From the NCBI GenBank assembly GCA_002163155.1, contig MAAO01000002.1, positions 496,001 through 560,000 on the forward strand: a DNA stretch of 64,000 nucleotides, read 5' to 3'. How positions within the stretch are numbered: position 1 is the stretch's first letter; every line of letters begins with the position of its first letter. Below are positions 6,373-17,089 of the stretch, piece by piece. The notes under the pieces were generated by a model. That model searched no databases. It saw only the letters and a list, made by a program, of their open reading frames with translations, and was not told the origin of the DNA. This DNA is from Halobacteriovorax marinus (lineage in GTDB: Bacteria > Bdellovibrionota > Bacteriovoracia > Bacteriovoracales > Bacteriovoracaceae). A program made the translations under genes and the position numbers.

Positions 6373-9300
6373 TTAGTTAACCGTGTAACTCACATCTGAT
6401 TCAGTGAACGTTGGACTATCACCACCACCATGAATGATTTCAATATCAATTAATGGATGGACAATACTTGTTACATTGAAAGTAAGTACATAACCTTGGC
6501 CACTCACTGTTAAGACAGGGGAGGCTACTGCTCCTGAAGCACTATTAACTGAAAGCACATGGGCTGAAATAGCATTATTGTGGTAGAAGCGACCCTCAAA
6601 GTGTCCACCACCACCGGCACCAGAAATATGAACTTTATAGATCACACTTTTCCAAGTTGATGCCGTAACACTTACGACTATATTTCCTGAATATGTTCCT
6701 ACTTTATTCCAAAGTTTATTAATCTTTACCGCACCACCATCATTAGTATTGTGAAGCTTTGTACTGGCGTCAGCTGTCTTAATATCTAGAGTCGCAGCAG
6801 GTGCATTACCTCCAATTCCAACTCTACCATTTGTATCAATTCGCATTGCTTCTGCAACATTTCCTGGAGCAGTAGTGGTTATTCCTGTACCAAAGGATAT
6901 TCCACCATCGTTACCGGTTCCATTGAATTGCATGTAACCCATCCAAGTTGAATCAATTTTTTCTTGAATCCTTGTACCTGCACTGTTCCAAACGGAACCT
7001 GCAGAAGTTCTGATTTGTCTGATATCTAGGAAGTTATTGTTTCCATTATGACTACTGAATCTTGCCATTTCGACTACGTTGTTTAGAGTAGTCCCTAAAC
7101 TAGGTGCTACTACTTCTAACTGTGCATCAGGGGTTGTTGTTCCTATTCCCACATTTCCATTGGTATTTATTATCATTTCAGGAGTACCACTTCCACTTTC
7201 ATTTACACCAAAACTGATAGGGTGGTTAGTATCAGTTATAATCTCAAGTCCAGCGGTTGGAGATGTGAAGTATCTCTGAGCACCTTCAGCTGATTGGATG
7301 ACAGATTCAACATTCGTAGTAGTAGACTTTATTCTACCTGCAGCGTTAGTTGCAGTAGCGTCGTGTACATGAAATAGACCGCTTGGTGAAGTTGTTCCAA
7401 TTGCGACTCTTCCACCATTTCTATTTAAAACTAGTGACTGTGCAACTGATTCAGCATTGTTGGTCGCTTCTATAAAAGAATATTGTTCAACTCCAGATTC
7501 CCAGCGCGCACCTAGAATCAATTTTTGATCTGTTTGTTGAATCTTTACTTTTGCTTCATCTGTTATAGCATTATCATCTCTTACATGGAGTCTGGTGTTG
7601 GCTTCTGGAGCAATAATTCCAACCCCTACATTACCAGAAGCATCAATATTAATTCCGTTCGTACCACCATTACCAACTAGTGTATTGGTCGCAAGATCTA
7701 GTTTTTGAGTTGCTGTATGACTACCGAGGTTATCAGCGGCACCGCCACCACTTCCTCCTGAAATTAAAAATCCATAGGCATTAGTAAATAGGGTTGAGTT
7801 GTATAAATTTATGGTAGAACCTGAAGACTGTCTGGTTGCAAATTCTAGATAATCAGAAGTCCCATTTAAATAAATGACAGCAGATATTTTAACATTAGGA
7901 TACATTCCTCCTGTTGTCACACCAGACGCGAGAGATGCTTTTACTCCTGAACCATTTTTTAAAATCCAGGCATAGGGATTATTCCAACCCGTTATCGCCG
8001 AATATAAAATATCCGCATGAACGTAGTAGTAACCAGCAGTCGTCGGTTGAAAGCGGTCATTGGTCATATCAAAAGCACTGGCAGTATCATATTCTTCAAT
8101 GTTGAAATTAATTTTTGTTGTCGTCGAAGTTGGAATGGCCTGACCCGAAGTCGCTGCCACACTAAATGAAACATTTGTATTTGAACTGAGTCCAATCCAG
8201 GTTGTTCCATCGTAGTACATCATCTTCTTAGTCGCAGTATTGTAATAAGTTTGCCCGGCTGTTCCTGGGCCAGGGTCAGCTGCGAGTTGTGGAATATTGA
8301 CTCCATTCGTTGAAGCAAAATCTAAATTGGCAACAGTCACAGTGTTCGCTGCGAGATCAGTTCCTGTTACTGATCCATCATTTATTTCATCACTTGTCAC
8401 AGCACTGGTTGCAATTTCTGTTGCAGTCACGGAATCTGTAGTAAGTGATCCACCACTACCGGCACCAATTTTCACAATAGATAAAAAATTTGCTGCAGAA
8501 GTTGCATGAAGAGTTCTTGCCACAGTATCACCGTTATAGCCGACAATTTTTACAACTTGGCCAGCTGTTAATCGTAAAACAGTTGATAAACTCTCTGTTA
8601 GTGTCGCGGAAGCCGCTCCTGCATAATTTCCATTTCGTATAACTTCACTTCCATCAACAAATAATGAAAGAAGAACTCTCTTACCATCTACTAATGTATT
8701 CACTCTAATTGTAGAAGAAATTTGATAGAGACCAGCTTCTGGAGCAGTCCATTCACCTGTACTTGAATTGTAAGCAGAGTTTGAATCTTCATCTACTACA
8801 TTAAATTTAATGTCTTCAAAAGTTGAAGCAGTTAAAGACTGTGAGTTGTTATTTGATGCTCTAAAGTATACTTCACTTCCTGCGCTACTACTTGTGGCTC
8901 CATTAAGTAAAGTGAATCCCATATAAGCGTAACCGGATCCAAGAATATCTCTTCCTGATGATCCACGTGTCACAGCAATTTTATCGCCACTACTTAAATT
9001 TAGCATGACTGAAAAAGATTCGTCTGGTGAGCAGGCCGCTGTACAACTTGAAAGATCGATATCGACAATTTCATTGATTGAGTATGAAGGGGAGTCTGGA
9101 TTGATGACATAATCAAAGAGGACTCTTGAACTTCCTGTGGCTATACTTTTTAAATGTACGTTTAAGAGATAAAGTCCCGCTTCAGGAGCCACGAACCAAC
9201 CCTTAGATGAATCAAAGATTCCATCAGCGTCACTTAATATTCTACCGTTTAATGTTCCAGTTTCTGAATAGCTTGATCCAATTCTTCGACTCGATAATCC

Positions 9301-12300
9301 AGAGTCATAACCAGCAGCTCCAGTTGGATCAACACTCCAACTTCCTGCTGCTGCTACTAAGGCAAACTTCGCAGTACTTGATCCACCACTACCAGAACCA
9401 ACTTCATCCCAACTTGAACCATTGTAAGACTCAAGCTTTCCAGTCGTTGTATTGTAAATTATATCACCAGCAGATGGCGTTAGAGCATCTCTTGCTGTTG
9501 TTGTTAAGTTTGGTGGGCTAAAGGCATTAGCGTTAGATGAGAGATCAGCTGAAACTGCGCCTCCATCAGAAGTAATATAACCTCTAAGGTAGACAGTATA
9601 TGCGTTACTGGAATCTGTATTGTGACTTGATTTTGTTTCTATTGTTATTTCATTAGTTAGTGAATCGCTCCAGGGAACCATTATTTCGGTATAATCAGAA
9701 TTCGCATAATCTGAATAATGTCTTGAGTTATACTTACTCGTGTTCTCTGTTCCTGTAGCACCCTTTTGATAAGCATCAAATGTCCAATAACCGTGTGTTG
9801 AACCATTATCTCCATGGTTATAATAAATCCCAATGACAACTGCCTTAGTCGTTGCTGGTAGAGCAGTTGCTAGAGTATAGTGATTAGTTGGAGTAATAGT
9901 GTGGTAAGTCACACCTGAGACAATAGTTTCATTCGCTCTTTTTAAATTAAAACTTCCACCGCCACTACCAGATCCCATCTCAACCCAAGAAGACCCATCA
10001 TAGAACATGATCTTCTTGGTTGCTGTGTTGTAGTAAGTTTGCCCAGCAGTAGTTCCTGTTGGATCTGCTGCAAGTTGAGGAATATTGATACCGTCAGTTG
10101 TTGCGAAATCGAGATTGTCAATTGTCACAGTATTAGAAGCGATATCAGTTCCTGTTACTGTTCCATCATCTATCTCATCACTTGTTACTGCACTAGTTGC
10201 AATTTCTGTAGCTGACACTGAATCAGCAGAAAGGGCACCGCCAGAAGCTCCTGCTCCTATGTAGTGAATATTAAAAAATGTAGCTTCATTTACATATAAA
10301 GTACAAGCACTTGAGCATCTAGCAAAGACTTCAACTGTTTGACCCGCGCTTAAGTCTAAGACTTTCATAAGTCTTGGGAAGTTTTCACCACCGCCAGTTC
10401 TTGAACCAATTTCATTAGACGATGCTACTTGAGTACCGGCCACTTCTAATCTTATTGCACCTGTAACATTATCATCTACATCCATTGCAAGTTGAGAGGA
10501 GAAGATGTATTTACCAGTCTTTGGAGCCGTGAAAGTATTTGTGGCAAAGTTATTAGAGGCATCGGCCAGTTCATTACCAAAAATAACTTTTTGAGCAACT
10601 CCACCAGAGAGGGCTTGATTTGATCCCCCTACATTATTTACTTCTACGAAAATATTTGAACTAGATGAATTGGTCAGCTCTATCCAAGCTGTTCCGTCAT
10701 AACTATTTAAGAGTTTAGTAGTCGTATCAAAAATGATGAGACCTATTGCTGGAGTTGCTATGGCATCTCTTTGTACTGTAGTCATCCTAGGAGGAAGGAA
10801 ACCCTTTGTTGAAGAGCTCACATCAAGAGCAGCACTTGGGTCTGGAGTTGTACCAATTCCAAAGCTTGTAAAATAATTATCAGATAGAGTTTGTAGATCA
10901 AGACAAGAAAAACTTCCCACTCCATTTGTCATGAGAGTTCTACCGTTAGCACAACTTGTACTCAGTCCCGATAGGTGAGTGTCTAGAATTCCTTCTGCTT
11001 TTACACTTATAGTTCCTGCCGTATCTAGAATTGTTGTACCGTCTGCTGTGAGTTTTGTATCAGTCGTCATGGCAGTACATGATCCGTCTGCAAGAAGAAC
11101 TTGCGTTCCCGTACAAATGGTTGTGGTATTTGTGTTGTTGTCTGTAATCCCAGTAATAAGGGATCCATCAAGAGCAGGAAATCTTCCTGAAGCATCAAGT
11201 CTTACAAGTTGACTATTTCCATTGGTAGAACCAATTCCTATCAGAACATCATTTGTATTTGCTGTAAGGGCAATATCACTGCTAGCAGTTAAGCCTTTAA
11301 AGACTAGGTCTGTTGACGTTTTTGTTTTATATAACGAAGTACCACCAGCACTTGAAGCGGTATTGGTTTCTCCCGCAGAGCCTGATCCACAGGCCGTACC
11401 AGTAGCACTGATGACTCCGGTTGAACTTGTTTGGAGACATCTTGTTCCTGTTCCTGCGAGACTTGTGGCCTTAATATTACCGGCGGCTTCAATTCTAAAT
11501 TTTTCAGTACCACCAGTGACTAGCACTAAGTTACCAGCATCATCTCCAACCTTAGTTGAAGTTCCTGTTGTCGTTGTATTTTGAAAGTTGATGAAGGACT
11601 TGGTATCACTATCTGCTTCAAAAGTTGCAACGATATTTGATGAAGAACTTTTTACGTGAAGTGTTTTTCCTGGTGTAAATGTTCCAATCCCAACATTACC
11701 AGCAGAGTCAACAGCGATACCTTCATTCCCACCATCTCCACTTAGATAATTTGATCCAAGTTGAATATTTGCTGTGGCCGTATGATTTCCTAAATTATCT
11801 GCACCAGAGCTCATGGCCACACATGATCCATCAGCAAGAAGAACATTTGTTCCTGTACAAATCGTTGTGGCGTTTGTATTTGTGTCAGCAACAGTTGTAT
11901 CAACAGTCATAGCGACACAACTTCCATCAGCAAGAAGAACATTTGTTCCCGTACAAATAGTTGTAGCGTTTGTATTAGTGTCAGCAATAGTTAAATCCGC
12001 AACACAAGTTAAACTCGTTCCATTTCCTTTTAAGACTTGACCGACACCACAAGTGGGTAGGGCTGCTTTTGCAAAAGCTGTAACTGAAGGATCAGTTTCA
12101 ACTGCTGTATCTAGGTTTCCTGATCCATCAAGGATAGGGATTTTTCCTGCTGTATTACCAGTGTCAACTGCTAGTGTTCCGGTTGTTGTAATCGTTCCAC
12201 CAGTTAGACCAGATCCCGCTACAATTGAAGTGACTGTTCCACCACCGCCACCTGAACCACAGGCAGTACCTGTTGCTGAGATAACACCAGTTGAGCTTGC

Positions 12301-14052
12301 TTGTAGACATCTTGTTCCAGTACCGGCAAGAGAAGTTATTTTAGCGTCACCAGCGACGTGTAATTTTGCATCCGCTGTTGCACTTCCAATCGCTACGCGA
12401 CCAGCTGCAGTTATTCTAAATGAATTCGTAACAGCTGCACTTGTATTGTAAAATCTAAAGTCACCAGCGTTAGTTATAGAAATTGTTCCGTACTTTGTTC
12501 CGTCTTGAGAGATGAGTCTTGCTCCACCGTCCATGGAATCAATATTTGATTTAATATTTAATAAAGAGGTGAGAGTAGAAGTTCCGATTCCTACTTTTCC
12601 GCCATTAGGAACTAATTCCACATAATTTGAAGCGGCCGTGTCGTGAGTTGAAACTGTAAGGGCAGACTTTGTTCCATCGGGAGATACCATTTTATAAGAA
12701 AGGCCATCACTACTTGGAACAAGATCTAAACTAGTACTTGCTCCAGTGCCTGAAAGTGTATAAGTAAATTCTCTTTCACCATCAAAAACTAAAACGTCAG
12801 CGTTAGCATTGGCTCCAATTTCTACTTTTCCAGCAACGTCTAATTTATTTCCGGCAGCAGCGACTGCTCCCACTCCAACGTTACCTGAGGTATCAACTCT
12901 TATTCCTTCGTTACCTCCATCTCCTGAGAGATAGTTTGTTCCAAGAGTTATATTTCCAGTTGCAGTGTGATCTCCAAGATCATCGGCTCCACTAGCGGGA
13001 GTTGTACAAACAACATCTCCGGCCACGTCAATGGACATTACCGTTCCAACACCACAGACTCCAGCGTTGATGCGATCAAAAGTTATTGTATCAGTAGCGA
13101 TATCACCGTTAACAATTGTTCCATTTGAAATCATAGCACTTGTGACACTTGGAATTCTTGCAGTAGCGAATGTACCTGAAGTTACTTTACCGGCATCTAT
13201 ATTTGGAATTTGTCCTGTTGCAAAAGTACCTGTGGTAACTTTGGCGGCATCTAAGTTTGGAATCTGTCCTGCCGTAAATGTACCAGTAGTAATTTTAGCA
13301 GCATCTAAACTAGGAATTCTTGCAACACCAAATGAACCTGTTGTAATCTTGGCTGCATCTAAGTTTGGAATTCTAGCTGTAGTAAAAATACCTGAAGTGA
13401 TTTTAGCGGCATCTAAATTTGGAATTTCCGCTGCTGATAAATTTACATTAACAACTGGAGCAGCGGCAGTACCAGAAATAGTAATTCCAGTTCCTGGATT
13501 AACACTTGTAACAGTTCCACCACCACCACCAGTGCTATCATTGGCACAAGTAAATGCTCCAGCACCATCAGCTTTTAACACCTGACCAACTGTACAATTT
13601 GTTGTGATTCCATTTATTGAAAGGTTCGTAATTGATTGCGCTTTAACAGACTCTGCACCTAGCGCATAAATAGCTAGGGGAGTTCCAGTGATTGATTGCA
13701 CGGGATAAGTTTTTGTATTGGAATTATCCGTAACTCGAATATACAAAGCATCACCGGCCGTAACCGCTTCAGCAATAATCGTTTTTAAAGTTTTTGTATT
13801 AGTGGCACAAGTTGTGGCGTAATCAAATTCAAGATGAAACACACCGTTTGAAAGAGCAACACTAGCGTCAGTGTGAGAACATTTTAAAGTTGGACCTGCT
13901 CCGGTTAAGACTTCAACTGTAAGACTAACTGGTCCCGCAATAGGAGCGCCAGAGGCCATAGTTAATCTACCGGAATAGGAAATCAGCTCACTTGAATGTG
14001 AGTTAAAAATGAGAAAAAGAAATAGTAATATTAATTGCTTAATCACCCTCAA
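6373..14052 (-). CDS. Giant secreted modular fibre/adhesin, MAT-like
   Basis: A 2559-residue protein with an N-terminal signal peptide (LILLFLFLIFNSHSS), then a conserved head (ISYSGRLT ... LAIYALGAESVKAQS). Phage-fibre-like modules follow: five 18-residue repeats (IPNLDAAKITTGTF, about residues 205-300), YLSGDGGNEGI and NVGIGT stalk segments, and DGSSWVEMGSGSGG linkers. Four C1q/TNF-like jelly rolls lie near 1130-1265, 1560-1715, 1725-1865 and 1955-2100, plus another beta domain near 1365-1500. No S74 chaperone domain is visible at the C-terminus. The composition (Gly, Thr, Ser, Ala, few Lys) suits a trimeric extracellular fibre. Bdellovibrio mosaic adhesive trimer proteins have this plan and are used to recognise prey; a similar role is inferred. 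Its likely upstream partner is at 14270-15703. Confidence 0.75.
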   Translation of the reverse strand: MRVIKQLILLFLFLIFNSHSSELISYSGRLTMASGAPIAGPVSLTVEVLTGAGPTLKCSHTDASVALSNGVFHLEFDYATTCATNTKTLKTIIAEAVTAGDALYIRVTDNSNTKTYPVQSITGTPLAIYALGAESVKAQSITNLSINGITTNCTVGQVLKADGAGAFTCANDSTGGGGGTVTSVNPGTGITISGTAAAPVVNVNLSAAEIPNLDAAKITSGIFTTARIPNLDAAKITTGSFGVARIPSLDAAKITTGTFTAGQIPNLDAAKVTTGTFATGQIPNIDAGKVTSGTFATARIPSVTSAMISNGTIVNGDIATDTITFDRINAGVCGVGTVMSIDVAGDVVCTTPASGADDLGDHTATGNITLGTNYLSGDGGNEGIRVDTSGNVGVGAVAAAGNKLDVAGKVEIGANANADVLVFDGEREFTYTLSGTGASTSLDLVPSSDGLSYKMVSPDGTKSALTVSTHDTAASNYVELVPNGGKVGIGTSTLTSLLNIKSNIDSMDGGARLISQDGTKYGTISITNAGDFRFYNTSAAVTNSFRITAAGRVAIGSATADAKLHVAGDAKITSLAGTGTRCLQASSTGVISATGTACGSGGGGGTVTSIVAGSGLTGGTITTTGTLAVDTGNTAGKIPILDGSGNLDTAVETDPSVTAFAKAALPTCGVGQVLKGNGTSLTCVADLTIADTNTNATTICTGTNVLLADGSCVAMTVDTTVADTNTNATTICTGTNVLLADGSCVAMSSGADNLGNHTATANIQLGSNYLSGDGGNEGIAVDSAGNVGIGTFTPGKTLHVKSSSSNIVATFEADSDTKSFINFQNTTTTGTSTKVGDDAGNLVLVTGGTEKFRIEAAGNIKATSLAGTGTRCLQTSSTGVISATGTACGSGSAGETNTASSAGGTSLYKTKTSTDLVFKGLTASSDIALTANTNDVLIGIGSTNGNSQLVRLDASGRFPALDGSLITGITDNNTNTTTICTGTQVLLADGSCTAMTTDTKLTADGTTILDTAGTISVKAEGILDTHLSGLSTSCANGRTLMTNGVGSFSCLDLQTLSDNYFTSFGIGTTPDPSAALDVSSSTKGFLPPRMTTVQRDAIATPAIGLIIFDTTTKLLNSYDGTAWIELTNSSSSNIFVEVNNVGGSNQALSGGVAQKVIFGNELADASNNFATNTFTAPKTGKYIFSSQLAMDVDDNVTGAIRLEVAGTQVASSNEIGSRTGGGENFPRLMKVLDLSAGQTVEVFARCSSACTLYVNEATFFNIHYIGAGASGGALSADSVSATEIATSAVTSDEIDDGTVTGTDIASNTVTIDNLDFATTDGINIPQLAADPTGTTAGQTYYNTATKKIMFYDGSSWVEMGSGSGGGSFNLKRANETIVSGVTYHTITPTNHYTLATALPATTKAVVIGIYYNHGDNGSTHGYWTFDAYQKGATGTENTSKYNSRHYSDYANSDYTEIMVPWSDSLTNEITIETKSSHNTDSSNAYTVYLRGYITSDGGAVSADLSSNANAFSPPNLTTTARDALTPSAGDIIYNTTTGKLESYNGSSWDEVGSGSGGSSTAKFALVAAAGSWSVDPTGAAGYDSGLSSRRIGSSYSETGTLNGRILSDADGIFDSSKGWFVAPEAGLYLLNVHLKSIATGSSRVLFDYVINPDSPSYSINEIVDIDLSSCTAACSPDESFSVMLNLSSGDKIAVTRGSSGRDILGSGYAYMGFTLLNGATSSSAGSEVYFRASNNNSQSLTASTFEDIKFNVVDEDSNSAYNSSTGEWTAPEAGLYQISSTIRVNTLVDGKRVLLSLFVDGSEVIRNGNYAGAASATLTESLSTVLRLTAGQVVKIVGYNGDTVARTLHATSAANFLSIVKIGAGSGGSLTTDSVTATEIATSAVTSDEINDGSVTGTDLAANTVTVANLDFASTNGVNIPQLAADPGPGTAGQTYYNTATKKMMYYDGTTWIGLSSNTNVSFSVAATSGQAIPTSTTTKINFNIEEYDTASAFDMTNDRFQPTTAGYYYVHADILYSAITGWNNPYAWILKNGSGVKASLASGVTTGGMYPNVKISAVIYLNGTSDYLEFATRQSSGSTINLYNSTLFTNAYGFLISGGSGGGAADNLGSHTATQKLDLATNTLVGNGGTNGINIDASGNVGVGIIAPEANTRLHVRDDNAITDEAKVKIQQTDQKLILGARWESGVEQYSFIEATNNAESVAQSLVLNRNGGRVAIGTTSPSGLFHVHDATATNAAGRIKSTTTNVESVIQSAEGAQRYFTSPTAGLEIITDTNHPISFGVNESGSGTPEMIINTNGNVGIGTTTPDAQLEVVAPSLGTTLNNVVEMARFSSHNGNNNFLDIRQIRTSAGSVWNSAGTRIQEKIDSTWMGYMQFNGTGNDGGISFGTGITTTAPGNVAEAMRIDTNGRVGIGGNAPAATLDIKTADASTKLHNTNDGGAVKINKLWNKVGTYSGNIVVSVTASTWKSVIYKVHISGAGGGGHFEGRFYHNNAISAHVLSVNSASGAVASPVLTVSGQGYVLTFNVTSIVHPLIDIEIIHGGGDSPTFTESDVSYTVN
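8195..10235. repeat. Duplicated stalk module inside the giant fibre gene
   Basis: Two copies of a module of about 85 residues lie at roughly 8195-8445 and 9975-10235. Each runs ATEIATSAVTSDEI, then NIPQLAADP, then TAGQTYYNTATKK and a W-containing end. The copies precede different jelly-roll domains, so they look like recombination-prone connectors between exchangeable tips. Confidence 0.75.
11060..11990. repeat. Repeated cysteine-containing segment in the giant fibre gene
   Basis: The segment TTICTGTNVLLADGSCVAM occurs in two adjacent copies (about 11815-11980) and a third diverged copy near 11065-11130. The DNA is nearly identical between the adjacent pair (GCAAGAAGAACATTTGTTCC at about 11830 and 11930), which points to recent tandem duplication. 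Confidence 0.7.
13150..13428. repeat. Five 54 bp tandem repeats encoding an 18-residue beta repeat
   Basis: Five successive units of the type IPNLDAAKITTGTFTTAR are encoded here on the minus strand. Each unit is 18 codons, so copy number can change without breaking the frame. Such short repeats form triple beta-helix shafts in phage-like fibres. Confidence 0.85.
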
Positions 14053-14269: not shown

Positions 14270-15703
14270 TTAGTGCATGATTTCAGCAGCTGTTGATTCA
14301 AGCACATGATCTACATCCAAGTGGCGAGAACGACCACTTTTCACTGAGAAATCTCCAATGGGAGCCGTCGTGGCTGGACCTCGAAAAATTCCATAACTTC
14401 CAAAACTTCCACTGAACTCAGCTACTCCTGCAGCTACTGGAGCTTTGGCAGTGGAACTAGTCGAACTATTGAAGTAATCAAAATCTTTAAGGACAACTTT
14501 ATGAGTGGCACAACTGTAGAGGTGAGTGGCCGGATTTCTATTGCCAAGAATGGAGACAAAGAAGTTTCCAATATTTCCATAAGTCATAATGGATGAAGTG
14601 AGAGCAGTTGTTAAAGGACCTGCCGTCACACCAAGATCATAGAAATCTGGTGTAGCATTTCCATCAAAATCTACTCCATTAGTAGCGTGTGGATAATTTG
14701 TTTCAACTTGTAAACAATTTAGAGCATTTGGATTATACGTATCTAAATCATAGAGTCCATAATCATAATTGGCGTTTAAGTATTCCGTTGAGGCCATATT
14801 CACTGTGGCCACTTCTGTGGTTTGAATATACTGAACATCAACCGTTGAATTCATATTGGGAAAAGTTGAACTCACAAGATAGTTCTGGTTATCTTTATCT
14901 CCATCAACTCCAAGGGAGCTTTCTCCGTAGTAAGACAGACAAAAATTTCCATCAATAGCACCAACCGGAATCGCTGTAGAGTAAGTTGTTCCCGTTGTCC
15001 CCGGGTCTGGATCACAACAAGCGCCAGAACTTAAACAATAATAAATCGCTCCACCAATATCACTACTGAGAGCAACAGTAGGATTGACCGAGAAATTTCC
15101 CGAACCAATATCTGCAGTAATTATAGGTTTTATACTTGGGGGAATAGCTGCTGGTGCAACCGGAGAAGGTGAATCATCTTCAGGTGTTTCAGAAGTTTCT
15201 ACTAATTTATCTGAAGTTGTTCTGGCATCATCATCTGTACAGTTTGTAGCACACTCAACAACTTTAACTTCTTCTTTGTCTTTCTTCTCTAGATCTATTT
15301 TTTCTTTTTCTTTTGTTAATTCTTCCTGTGCAATTTTCTTCTGTCGAGATTCTTTACTGGCAGGATCACTTTGTTCGCGCGAACTATTCGCTTTCTTACT
15401 GGAGGATCTAGCACCACCCACAAAACTGGAGGACGCACTCTGTGGACTTTCTTGAAAGTCTGCGGATTCTATTTTTTCATCTTCTTCTCTTTCAGAAATA
15501 TCGTTGAGAAGGGAAGAGGGTGATCTGGCAATTTTTAATTTTCTTTGAAAGTCTGCTTCTTTTTTTTCTTGCAGTGCTACTGATTCTTTAGTTTCAACTT
15601 TTTTATCAGCAGTGGGAATTTTAGGAATCAGATAATAGAGCGCCACCCCAACTGCTGAGAGGGCCACGGTCTTTAAAATCATCTTGGGTATTTCTGATAA
15701 CAT
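14270..15703 (-). CDS. Membrane-anchored protein with charged stalk and cysteine-rich secreted domain
   Basis: A 477-residue protein that I do not recognise. A hydrophobic segment at about 8-25 (MILKTVALSAVGVALYYLIP) is probably an uncleaved inner-membrane anchor. Residues about 35-165 are highly charged and likely coiled coil or disordered (KEKEKIDLEKKDKEEVK). The rest is a Ser/Thr-rich domain with a tight cysteine cluster (YYCLSSGACCDPDP, residues about 225-240) and a DFDGNATPDFYDLG segment that could bind calcium. It lies 217 bp upstream of the giant fibre gene on the same strand, so it may help export, anchor or ripen that fibre. That role is inferred from position only. Confidence 0.6.
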   Translation of the reverse strand: MLSEIPKMILKTVALSAVGVALYYLIPKIPTADKKVETKESVALQEKKEADFQRKLKIARSPSSLLNDISEREEDEKIESADFQESPQSASSSFVGGARSSSKKANSSREQSDPASKESRQKKIAQEELTKEKEKIDLEKKDKEEVKVVECATNCTDDDARTTSDKLVETSETPEDDSPSPVAPAAIPPSIKPIITADIGSGNFSVNPTVALSSDIGGAIYYCLSSGACCDPDPGTTGTTYSTAIPVGAIDGNFCLSYYGESSLGVDGDKDNQNYLVSSTFPNMNSTVDVQYIQTTEVATVNMASTEYLNANYDYGLYDLDTYNPNALNCLQVETNYPHATNGVDFDGNATPDFYDLGVTAGPLTTALTSSIMTYGNIGNFFVSILGNRNPATHLYSCATHKVVLKDFDYFNSSTSSTAKAPVAAGVAEFSGSFGSYGIFRGPATTAPIGDFSVKSGRSRHLDVDHVLESTAAEIMH

Positions 15704-15900: not shown

Positions 15901-16557
15901 ATGACAAAACACACACTACGCTCAATAATTCTCTTTCTATTCTCAACACTCATCTTTGCAGCCGAGCCAGGCTACCCACAGCACTGGTGGCAAGAAGTTG
16001 ATCCCTCTAGCGCTTCTAGTTGGGAAGTATTGCCACAGGCCGCTGGAGCTGGAGAAGTGATTCTCTCTAAGAGAAATGAGCTGGGAATTCTTTCAAATTT
16101 TGCGGCTACACCATTTATCTATAAAGAGATAGCTTTTGAATCGGTAGAAGGACTTTGGCAATCTCTTAAATACCCAGAGGGTGAAGATGACTTTCGAGCC
16201 ACTTATGAGGGGCTGGAATGGCCTTATACGCGCTCTGAAGTGGAGCAAATGGTTGGTTTCCTCGCAAGAAAGGCCGGACGTTACGCCAACGCTAATATGC
16301 GTGAAATGGATATCAACTGGGTGACTTTTAAAGGTAAGAAAATCAAACTTTGGGTAAGCACAACGACAAAAGGCGTGCACTATAGATTGATCAAAGATGC
16401 TCTTAAATCAAAAGCCATGCAAAATCCTGAGGTGATGAGTGTTCTCATGTCTACGGGAGACCTTATTCTAAGACCTGATCACAGTATGGGAGAAAGACCT
16501 CCGGCCTGGTTCTATAATAAAATCTGGATGGAGCTTAGAGCGGAATTCAATAAGTAA
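15901..16557 (+). CDS. Secreted NADAR-domain protein (YbiA/RibX superfamily)
   Basis: A 218-residue protein with an N-terminal signal peptide (SIILFLFSTLIFAA). The mature part carries the NADAR signature ILSNFAATPFIYKEIAFESV, then EGLWQSLKY, and a C-terminal VLMSTGDLILRPD ... IWMELRAEF that matches the LLxTGxxxIxE ... LMxIR end of the family. NADAR proteins are N-glycosidases acting on ADP-ribose-linked or riboflavin-pathway substrates and are normally cytoplasmic (family knowledge). An export signal is therefore unusual: the enzyme may act in the periplasm, on NAD metabolites, or in prey. An insertion between QSLKYPE and the next helix makes it longer than typical. It is a single gene with its own strong terminator. 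Confidence 0.78.
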   Translation: MTKHTLRSIILFLFSTLIFAAEPGYPQHWWQEVDPSSASSWEVLPQAAGAGEVILSKRNELGILSNFAATPFIYKEIAFESVEGLWQSLKYPEGEDDFRATYEGLEWPYTRSEVEQMVGFLARKAGRYANANMREMDINWVTFKGKKIKLWVSTTTKGVHYRLIKDALKSKAMQNPEVMSVLMSTGDLILRPDHSMGERPPAWFYNKIWMELRAEFNK

Positions 16558-16572
16558 TAAGCAATAATTATT

Positions 16573-16597
16573 GGGTCTCTAGTTAGACCCTTTTTTA
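16573..16597 (+). terminator. Rho-independent terminator after the NADAR gene
   Basis: GGGTCT (16573-16578) pairs with AGACCC (16585-16590) across a six-base loop and is followed by six T. Confidence 0.9.
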
Positions 16598-16684: not shown

Positions 16685-17089
16685 ATGAAAAAGCTTTCTG
16701 TATTGCTATTATCTTTATTCATTTTTAATTCAGCTTACGCTCTTTCAGATAGAGATTGTCGCAATGTCTACAATGATGCTTTTGAAGAATTGGCCCAAAG
16801 AACAATAGATTTTAATCAGGGTTACTCGGATAAGTTTGAATTCTCTGTGCAAGTAGCTGGAATTTCAACAACTGTCTCTAGTGTTAGGGCCCTTTGCTTA
16901 GTGATTGAGTCTCCGAAAAATGCTAAATGTGTAAAAGCTTATAAAAAACGTTATAAGACTCTTCGTAACCAAATAAAATTGACTTCGGTACTAGTTGGTA
17001 ATCAGACAAGAGTGAATCCAAGAGTAATCGACACTATAACTAGTGAATTTGGCACGTTATTTAACCGTGCAAAATGTGGGGACCTGTAA
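16685..17089 (+). CDS. Small secreted protein, unknown function
   Basis: A 134-residue protein with a clear signal peptide (LSVLLLSLFIFNSAYA), so the mature form of about 115 residues is periplasmic or secreted. Four cysteines remain in the mature part (DRDCRN, RALCLV, NAKCVK, RAKCGD), enough for two disulfides. The pattern is mostly helical with a basic middle (YKKRYKTLRNQ). A good ribosome site (TTAGGAGATACACC) precedes the ATG. No family recognised. It stands alone between the NADAR gene and rpsP. Confidence 0.7.
   Translation: MKKLSVLLLSLFIFNSAYALSDRDCRNVYNDAFEELAQRTIDFNQGYSDKFEFSVQVAGISTTVSSVRALCLVIESPKNAKCVKAYKKRYKTLRNQIKLTSVLVGNQTRVNPRVIDTITSEFGTLFNRAKCGDL

Follow-up and report, generated by a model that had tools for sequence, protein, structure and literature searches.

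The gene at 15901–16557 of the window (the whole 64,000-nucleotide stretch of DNA analysed here) very probably encodes, judging from its sequence, an exported protein with a NADAR fold. With a probability of roughly 0.5, we read this protein as a Sec-exported NADAR N-glycosidase that would belong to an exported set of enzymes dismantling nucleic acids and dinucleotides for salvage. The source organism is a relative of bacteria that prey on other bacteria. The earlier note had placed a NADAR protein with an export signal at this gene, and the ORF, which is intact from ATG to TAA, the Pfam and profile matches, the fold and the hydrophobic N-terminus all agree with it. The features of the gene and its surroundings are listed in Table 1.

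Table 1. Features of the exported NADAR gene and of its surroundings in the window
Feature	Position	Strand	Basis or remark
CDS, exported gp30.3-type NADAR protein, 218 aa	15901..16557	+	ORF, Pfam, profile, fold model
Signal sequence, residues 1–20 (predicted)	15901..15960	+	cleavage after A20 by eye, type I
Family-specific conserved N-terminal block, residues Y25–G62 (YPxHWW...SWEVLPQ...SKRNELG)	15973..16086	+	alignment
NADAR (gp30.3-type) core, residues 65–218	16093..16554	+	Pfam, profile, alignment, fold
E83	16147..16149	+	aligned with YbiA E and phage E; 116/116
K90	16168..16170	+	alignment and spacing; 107/116
D193-H194	16477..16482	+	H194 aligned with phage gp30.3 histidine
Terminator-like hairpin, then TTTTTT on +	16573..16590		3′ of NADAR gene
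Perfect 13-bp inverted repeat enclosing GTCATGACA, 16 nt 5′ of NADAR start codon	15845..15884		sequence
Divergent exported 477-aa protein	14270–15703		upstream of NADAR gene
Small exported protein	16685–17089		downstream of NADAR gene

In Pfam, the protein matched Phage_30_3 (gp30.3) with an E-value of 1.1e-7 and 32.1 bits (curated cut-off 36), and NADAR with an E-value of 0.033 and 14.9 bits, which falls short of the curated score (35.1). Since such a score is a reporting threshold and not a biological feature, NADAR membership rests on the fold and the residues. A profile of 29 relatives, 28 of which match Phage_30_3 and 27 NADAR at E ≤ 0.1 (best NADAR E-value 6.8e-6), had E. coli YbiA as its sole match in the PDB (E 6.6e-5), with the YbiA active-site glutamate and lysine aligned to E83 and K90. 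A single-protein phmmer match in the PDB, 3gkx (E 0.68), was taken as chance. Two PHROGs families of unknown function matched, and none of the 63 candidate stretches found on scanning viral_contigs with the family alignment was confirmed as a relative.

An AlphaFold2 model was built from five sequences and had a middling pLDDT of 66.6; residues 19–62 and 187–202 score below 50, and the loop around H194 is therefore modelled poorly. Foldseek placed 2b3w (E. coli YbiA), 8bau (P. nicotianae) and 8bat (G. lovleyi) at the top, and these three NADAR structures, with VIA-align Z-scores of 9.0, 8.3 and 7.8, were the only PDB matches with Z ≥ 5, in line with a YbiA-like fold. The next row scored 3.0, and no non-NADAR family rose above that value, which by itself excludes nothing.

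The P. nicotianae residues E43, K50 and E125 were mapped onto the window protein. We take E83 to be the counterpart of the active-site glutamate (E43 in P. nicotianae, E88 in E. coli C7), and K90 to be that of K50 or K95, its spacing from the glutamate likewise being 7. Both E83 and R111 are found in all 116 family members, D193 in 115/115 and H194 in 114/115 of those readable there, while position 90 carries K in 107 members, L in 7, M in 1 and H in 1. The earlier note had made its assignment depend on the catalytic residues of the NADAR pocket, and E83, K90 and H194 are kept, in a fold that the structure matches support. In place of the EHT-motif glutamate of the YbiA family, PDH or DHS is found, and H194 aligns with the phage histidine in all three phage proteins compared (RB49, Morganella and Brevundimonas). 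As H194 sits on the phage histidine, the protein is a histidine-type, gp30.3-like NADAR and not a YbiA; the class named in the earlier note therefore stands, in a narrower form than was stated there. Among the relatives, three acidobacterial exported NADARs (L029, L031 and L190) carry leucine at the position of the active-site lysine (MMLYP).

Phage gp30.3 (PF08010; T4, RB49) shares with the window protein the core fold, the motifs SNF, E-x6-K/R and HSxG, and the histidine that replaces the catalytic E/D of other NADARs. Identity is 31–33% in the alignment, and about 26–32% over 63–73% of the query among the 40 tblastn matches listed. Unlike the window protein, however, gp30.3 has neither a signal sequence nor the HWW...SWEVLPQ...SKRNELG block, its loop behind the catalytic K is shorter, and it acts inside the host cell. 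With its export signal and extra N-terminal block, the window protein departs from a phage-encoded cytoplasmic stand-alone domain, and no phage context of the gene was seen. YbiA-type NADARs share the fold and the active-site E and K, but they carry the EHT glutamate where the window protein has histidine, and E. coli YbiA has no export signal, its core beginning about 22 residues after the start of the solved chain. The DarT1-associated NADAR antitoxin (BC4488 type, the G. lovleyi structure above) is alike in fold, but it has aspartate for the histidine, is cytoplasmic and is encoded with DarT1. A DarTG1 antitoxin was considered and rejected for the window gene: no DarT toxin gene adjoins it, no DarT-like gene was seen among its neighbours, and two exported proteins flank it.

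The window protein begins with MTKHTLRSIILFLFSTLIFA-AEPGYPQHWW, with cleavage predicted between MTKHTLRSIILFLFSTLIFA and AE. The n-region of the signal is short and basic (K, H, R) and a hydrophobic core follows, with a best 12-residue Kyte-Doolittle mean of 2.80, against at most 1.51 in the remainder of the protein; the window member has no lipobox. Export signals were called throughout by a generous home-made hydrophobicity rule that chooses among start codons, not by SignalP. By this rule, the basic n-region, hydrophobic core, cleavage site and conservation in orthologues expected of Sec export were all found: a signal is present in 114 of the 116 gp30.3-type members, as the earlier note's claim needed, one more was recognised by eye with a long n-region, and the remaining one is unreadable at its N-terminus. 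It is very improbable that the N-terminal segment is a membrane anchor or a start-site artefact and not a functional signal. The rule itself picks the start codon and, in its lenient form, marks 408 of the 772 neighbouring ORFs (the secretome is large), although none of 14 recognisable cytosolic neighbours. Against an artefact speak its near-constant presence in orthologues, many of them with lipoboxes, and the h-regions, which are unrelated in sequence yet lie in the same place, whereas phage relatives begin at the core; moreover, the basic n-region would leave the domain facing outside even if uncleaved.

Lipobox-like signals occur in 44/116 gp30.3-type members and, together with the 9/116 replacements at K90, would fit a catalytically weak or inactive binder, that is, a periplasmic or lipoprotein receptor for ADP-ribose-like ligands in sensing or uptake. 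We consider such a receptor improbable, as E83 and H194 are nearly invariant, the members are mostly one-domain proteins and no coupled transporter was found among their recurring neighbours. Longer architectures also occur: in L102 (331–1860), about 280 aa are fused to the C-terminal side of an exported NADAR, while an additional domain is N-terminal in L190 and C-terminal in L214.

The hairpin 3′ of the window gene suggests a single-gene transcript; the hairpin search of the stretch found 3 where shuffles gave 1.0, an excess that is weak when taken alone. The 13-bp inverted repeat is not present in 4 other members of the genus, whereas a G(T/C)CATGACA element lies at about the same position before the NADAR gene in 5/5 genus members. 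Both flanking genes in Table 1 are conserved NADAR neighbours within the genus only, and both are common to the nearest named relative, Bacteriovoracaceae bacterium UBA3083 (71% identity); past the small exported protein lies, by eye, the rpsP region. Further upstream in the window (6373–14052, − strand), a 2559-aa exported protein with fibre-like repeats (DAAKITTG..., GNVGIGTT...) is possibly a predator adhesin or fibre, and in some other members of the genus an ORF related to it (cluster c32) adjoins the NADAR gene.

A profile search placed the gp30.3-type family in 111/368 genomes of the phylum, and a protein search in 22/59 genomes including the window's own. The 116 members comprise 117 fetched places and the window copy, less L178 and L179; L028, with an interrupted frame, was excluded before the counts, and four contig-end or partial places from the profile search stay outside the 116. 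Of the two removed, L179 (genome G175) is apparently cytoplasmic and of another architecture; its N-terminus looks SLOG-like by eye, it matches the NADAR profile weakly, and the canonical NADAR of the same genome is exported. L178, a weak family hit, belongs to the canonical YbiA type and carries a lipoprotein signal. Strong matches (E < 1e-80) were found in 3/297 Acidobacteriota genomes (5/297 at E ≤ 0.001) and in 5/294 Planctomycetota genomes (10/294 at E ≤ 0.001). The translated members from both phyla likewise start, by eye, with signal-like sequences, and the genes flanking L030 and L031 look native to Planctomycetota and Acidobacteriota, respectively (also by eye). As these few Acidobacteriota and Planctomycetota are not known as predators, predation is not required.

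The search for other secreted NADARs, proposed in the earlier note, turned up many; at the level of predicted signals, exported NADARs are a trait of Bdellovibrionota, in two branches. For the second, YbiA-type branch, a PF08719 search gave 39/356 positive genomes of the phylum, all above the cut-off, with 40 places, all of which were fetched. Every one of the 35 proteins with the EHT motif has an export signal (34 by rule, one by eye), and a 36th protein of the YbiA branch has no EHT and has a signal by rule. The other four, non-EHT NADARs are without a signal, one of them (L281) ambiguously so, with an in-frame upstream hydrophobic stretch that has no start codon. The two types often occur together in family f1. 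In genus g71 of family f6, the gp30.3 type is found in 9 genomes, the YbiA type in 12, neither in 3 and both in none, the PF08719 search having given 0/12 in the 9 gp30.3-type and 3 NADAR-less genomes. Such zero overlap has a chance of 1.7e-4 under random placement among the 24 genomes, a figure that ignores kinship, and it would fit a replacement of one exported NADAR by the other.

Clustering of 920 neighbouring ORFs from the 116 loci brought out three exported partners. The first is an ExoIII-like protein (Exo_endo_phos_3, PF19580, E 5.6e-31), whose gene directly precedes NADAR on the same strand in 14/116 loci from seven genera of family f1. In the six loci that were mapped, the gaps are 5–34 bp, counting the stop codon; the nuclease of L170, far off and on the opposite strand, is not counted among the 14. 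The second, a type I phosphodiesterase/nucleotide pyrophosphatase lipoprotein (PF01663, E 5.7e-86), adjoins 9/116 loci, in 8 of them on the same strand. The third is a tandem UDG-like protein of 484–906 aa (the shortest cut by contig ends) with two UDG-like repeats, encoded within ±4 kb on either strand in 10/116 loci from four families. Four of five UDG-like proteins scanned matched the UDG superfamily above the cut-off, and their nearest NCBIfam models, UdgX and family-4 UDG, scored far under the cut-offs. NADAR, UDG, nuclease and pyrophosphatase genes stand all together in L112 (genome G033), the order UDG-nuclease-NADAR runs in one direction in L162, and in genome G023 the genes for UDG, nuclease and pyrophosphatase adjoin one another with no NADAR beside them. 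The exported YbiA-type genes have no such partner nearby (0/40).

Beyond adjacency, the UDG-like protein, present in 13/59 genomes, goes with NADAR: 12 of these 13 genomes are NADAR-positive versus 10 of the 46 others (p 6e-6, related genomes not being independent), and by genus the figures are 12/13 with the UDG protein versus 6/39 without. In genomes with the UDG protein, 3 of 16 NADAR loci adjoin its gene versus 0.05 expected, and at least 7 changes of the UDG neighbourhood are needed on the NADAR tree, 4 of them forced by well-supported branches. The nuclease occurs in 48/59 genomes, with weak NADAR co-occurrence (p 0.03), and the pyrophosphatase in 30/59, with none (p 0.24; strict 0.07); both are so widespread that co-occurrence tells little. 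The partner profiles had no match in the window, in the contig L027 of its own genus or in the contigs L028–L031 from outside the phylum, nor did the UDG profile in the four whole genomes behind L028–L031. The UDG-like protein was not found in the window's genome, and the genus is without this partner; exported nuclease and pyrophosphatase homologues are encoded in the window's genome, far from the NADAR gene.

The exported tandem UDG-superfamily proteins of Bdellovibrionota (L162:5893–8490, L116:6029–7993 and relatives, some of them lipoproteins), which occur also away from NADAR genes, are apparently undescribed. In L101 (5903–8556), a class II aldolase-type protein follows nuclease, NADAR and pyrophosphatase, with methionine-salvage-like and deaminase-like genes (by eye) also downstream, a hint that nucleosides are salvaged in that genus.

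NADARs hydrolyse ADP-ribose off guanine in DNA according to two reports (PMC11543638, PMC11125620); in the second, the T4-type NADAR removes it from guanosine in DNA, and a further one extends this to guanine in RNA, T4 enzyme included (PMC11833690). The window protein, Sec-exported, would work either in the periplasm or beyond the cell. On nucleic acids or nucleotides encountered outside the cytoplasm, it would cut the N-glycosidic bond that joins a base, most likely guanine, to ADP-ribose or a related ribosyl group. In the exported set it would stand beside the tandem UDG-like base glycosylase, the ExoIII/DNase-I-superfamily nuclease and the type I phosphodiesterase/nucleotide pyrophosphatase, and its simplest role would be to strip ribosyl adducts from nucleic acid and nucleotides under breakdown. 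In predators, prey nucleic acid and NAD derivatives would be the natural source. The substrate, the link to prey and the site (periplasm, outer membrane or bdelloplast) are what we infer. Action on NAD and ADP-ribose compounds or ADP-ribosylated nucleic acid, as the earlier note proposed, may be drawn only indirectly, from the biochemistry of the subfamily and the exported neighbours of relatives. Adjacency in a minority of loci and the members without lysine at K90 count against this reading. In Bdellovibrio, putative secreted nucleases are reported to be expressed in sequence through the predatory cycle (PMC7925074), and prey nucleotides are thought to be taken up (PMC12546842). Two of these nucleases, Bd0934 and Bd3507, resemble the window protein by function, being exported and presumably directed at the nucleic acid of the prey (PMC7925074), but they cleave phosphodiester bonds and are not N-glycosidases.

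Instead of salvage, the exported NADAR might reverse ADP-ribosylation that serves prey or competitors as defence or weapon, the work of DarT1-like prey enzymes or secreted guanine ADP-ribosylating toxins, much as gp30.3 may do inside its host. Its kinship with gp30.3 is in keeping with this, such a role was suggested for phage NADAR (PMC11125620), and invading predators and phages presumably meet the same prey. Nevertheless, we hold counter-defence to be unlikely: a Sec signal leads to the periplasm and not into the cytoplasm of the prey, there is no linked delivery system, the recurring neighbours include no recognised ADP-ribosyltransferase gene, and in that report phage NADAR gave no in vivo rescue from DarT1. 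Damage control of riboflavin intermediates, as by E. coli YbiA, would draw on the common fold and a weak TIGR02464 match (16.8 bits, cut-off 73.7), but these intermediates are cytoplasmic in the established pathway, and, as the sole NADAR of either kind found by searching the window's own genome is exported, this role was dropped as hardly credible.

Returning to the exported set, the two exported NADAR branches of Bdellovibrionota, with the UDG-like protein, the nuclease and the pyrophosphatase, might, as a tentative and rather doubtful extension, form an extracytoplasmic base-excision-like machine for uracil-type, modified or ADP-ribosylated bases of prey nucleic acid, before or during its digestion.

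The literature describes NADARs as antitoxins of the cytoplasm, as phage proteins or as enzymes of riboflavin damage control, and a full-text literature search, which was not exhaustive, found no report of an exported one. As most NADARs of this phylum are predicted to be exported, ADP-ribosyl bases or a similar ribosyl compound would be met outside the cytoplasm, and the question of how predators dismantle modified prey nucleic acid would gain a concrete set of enzymes.
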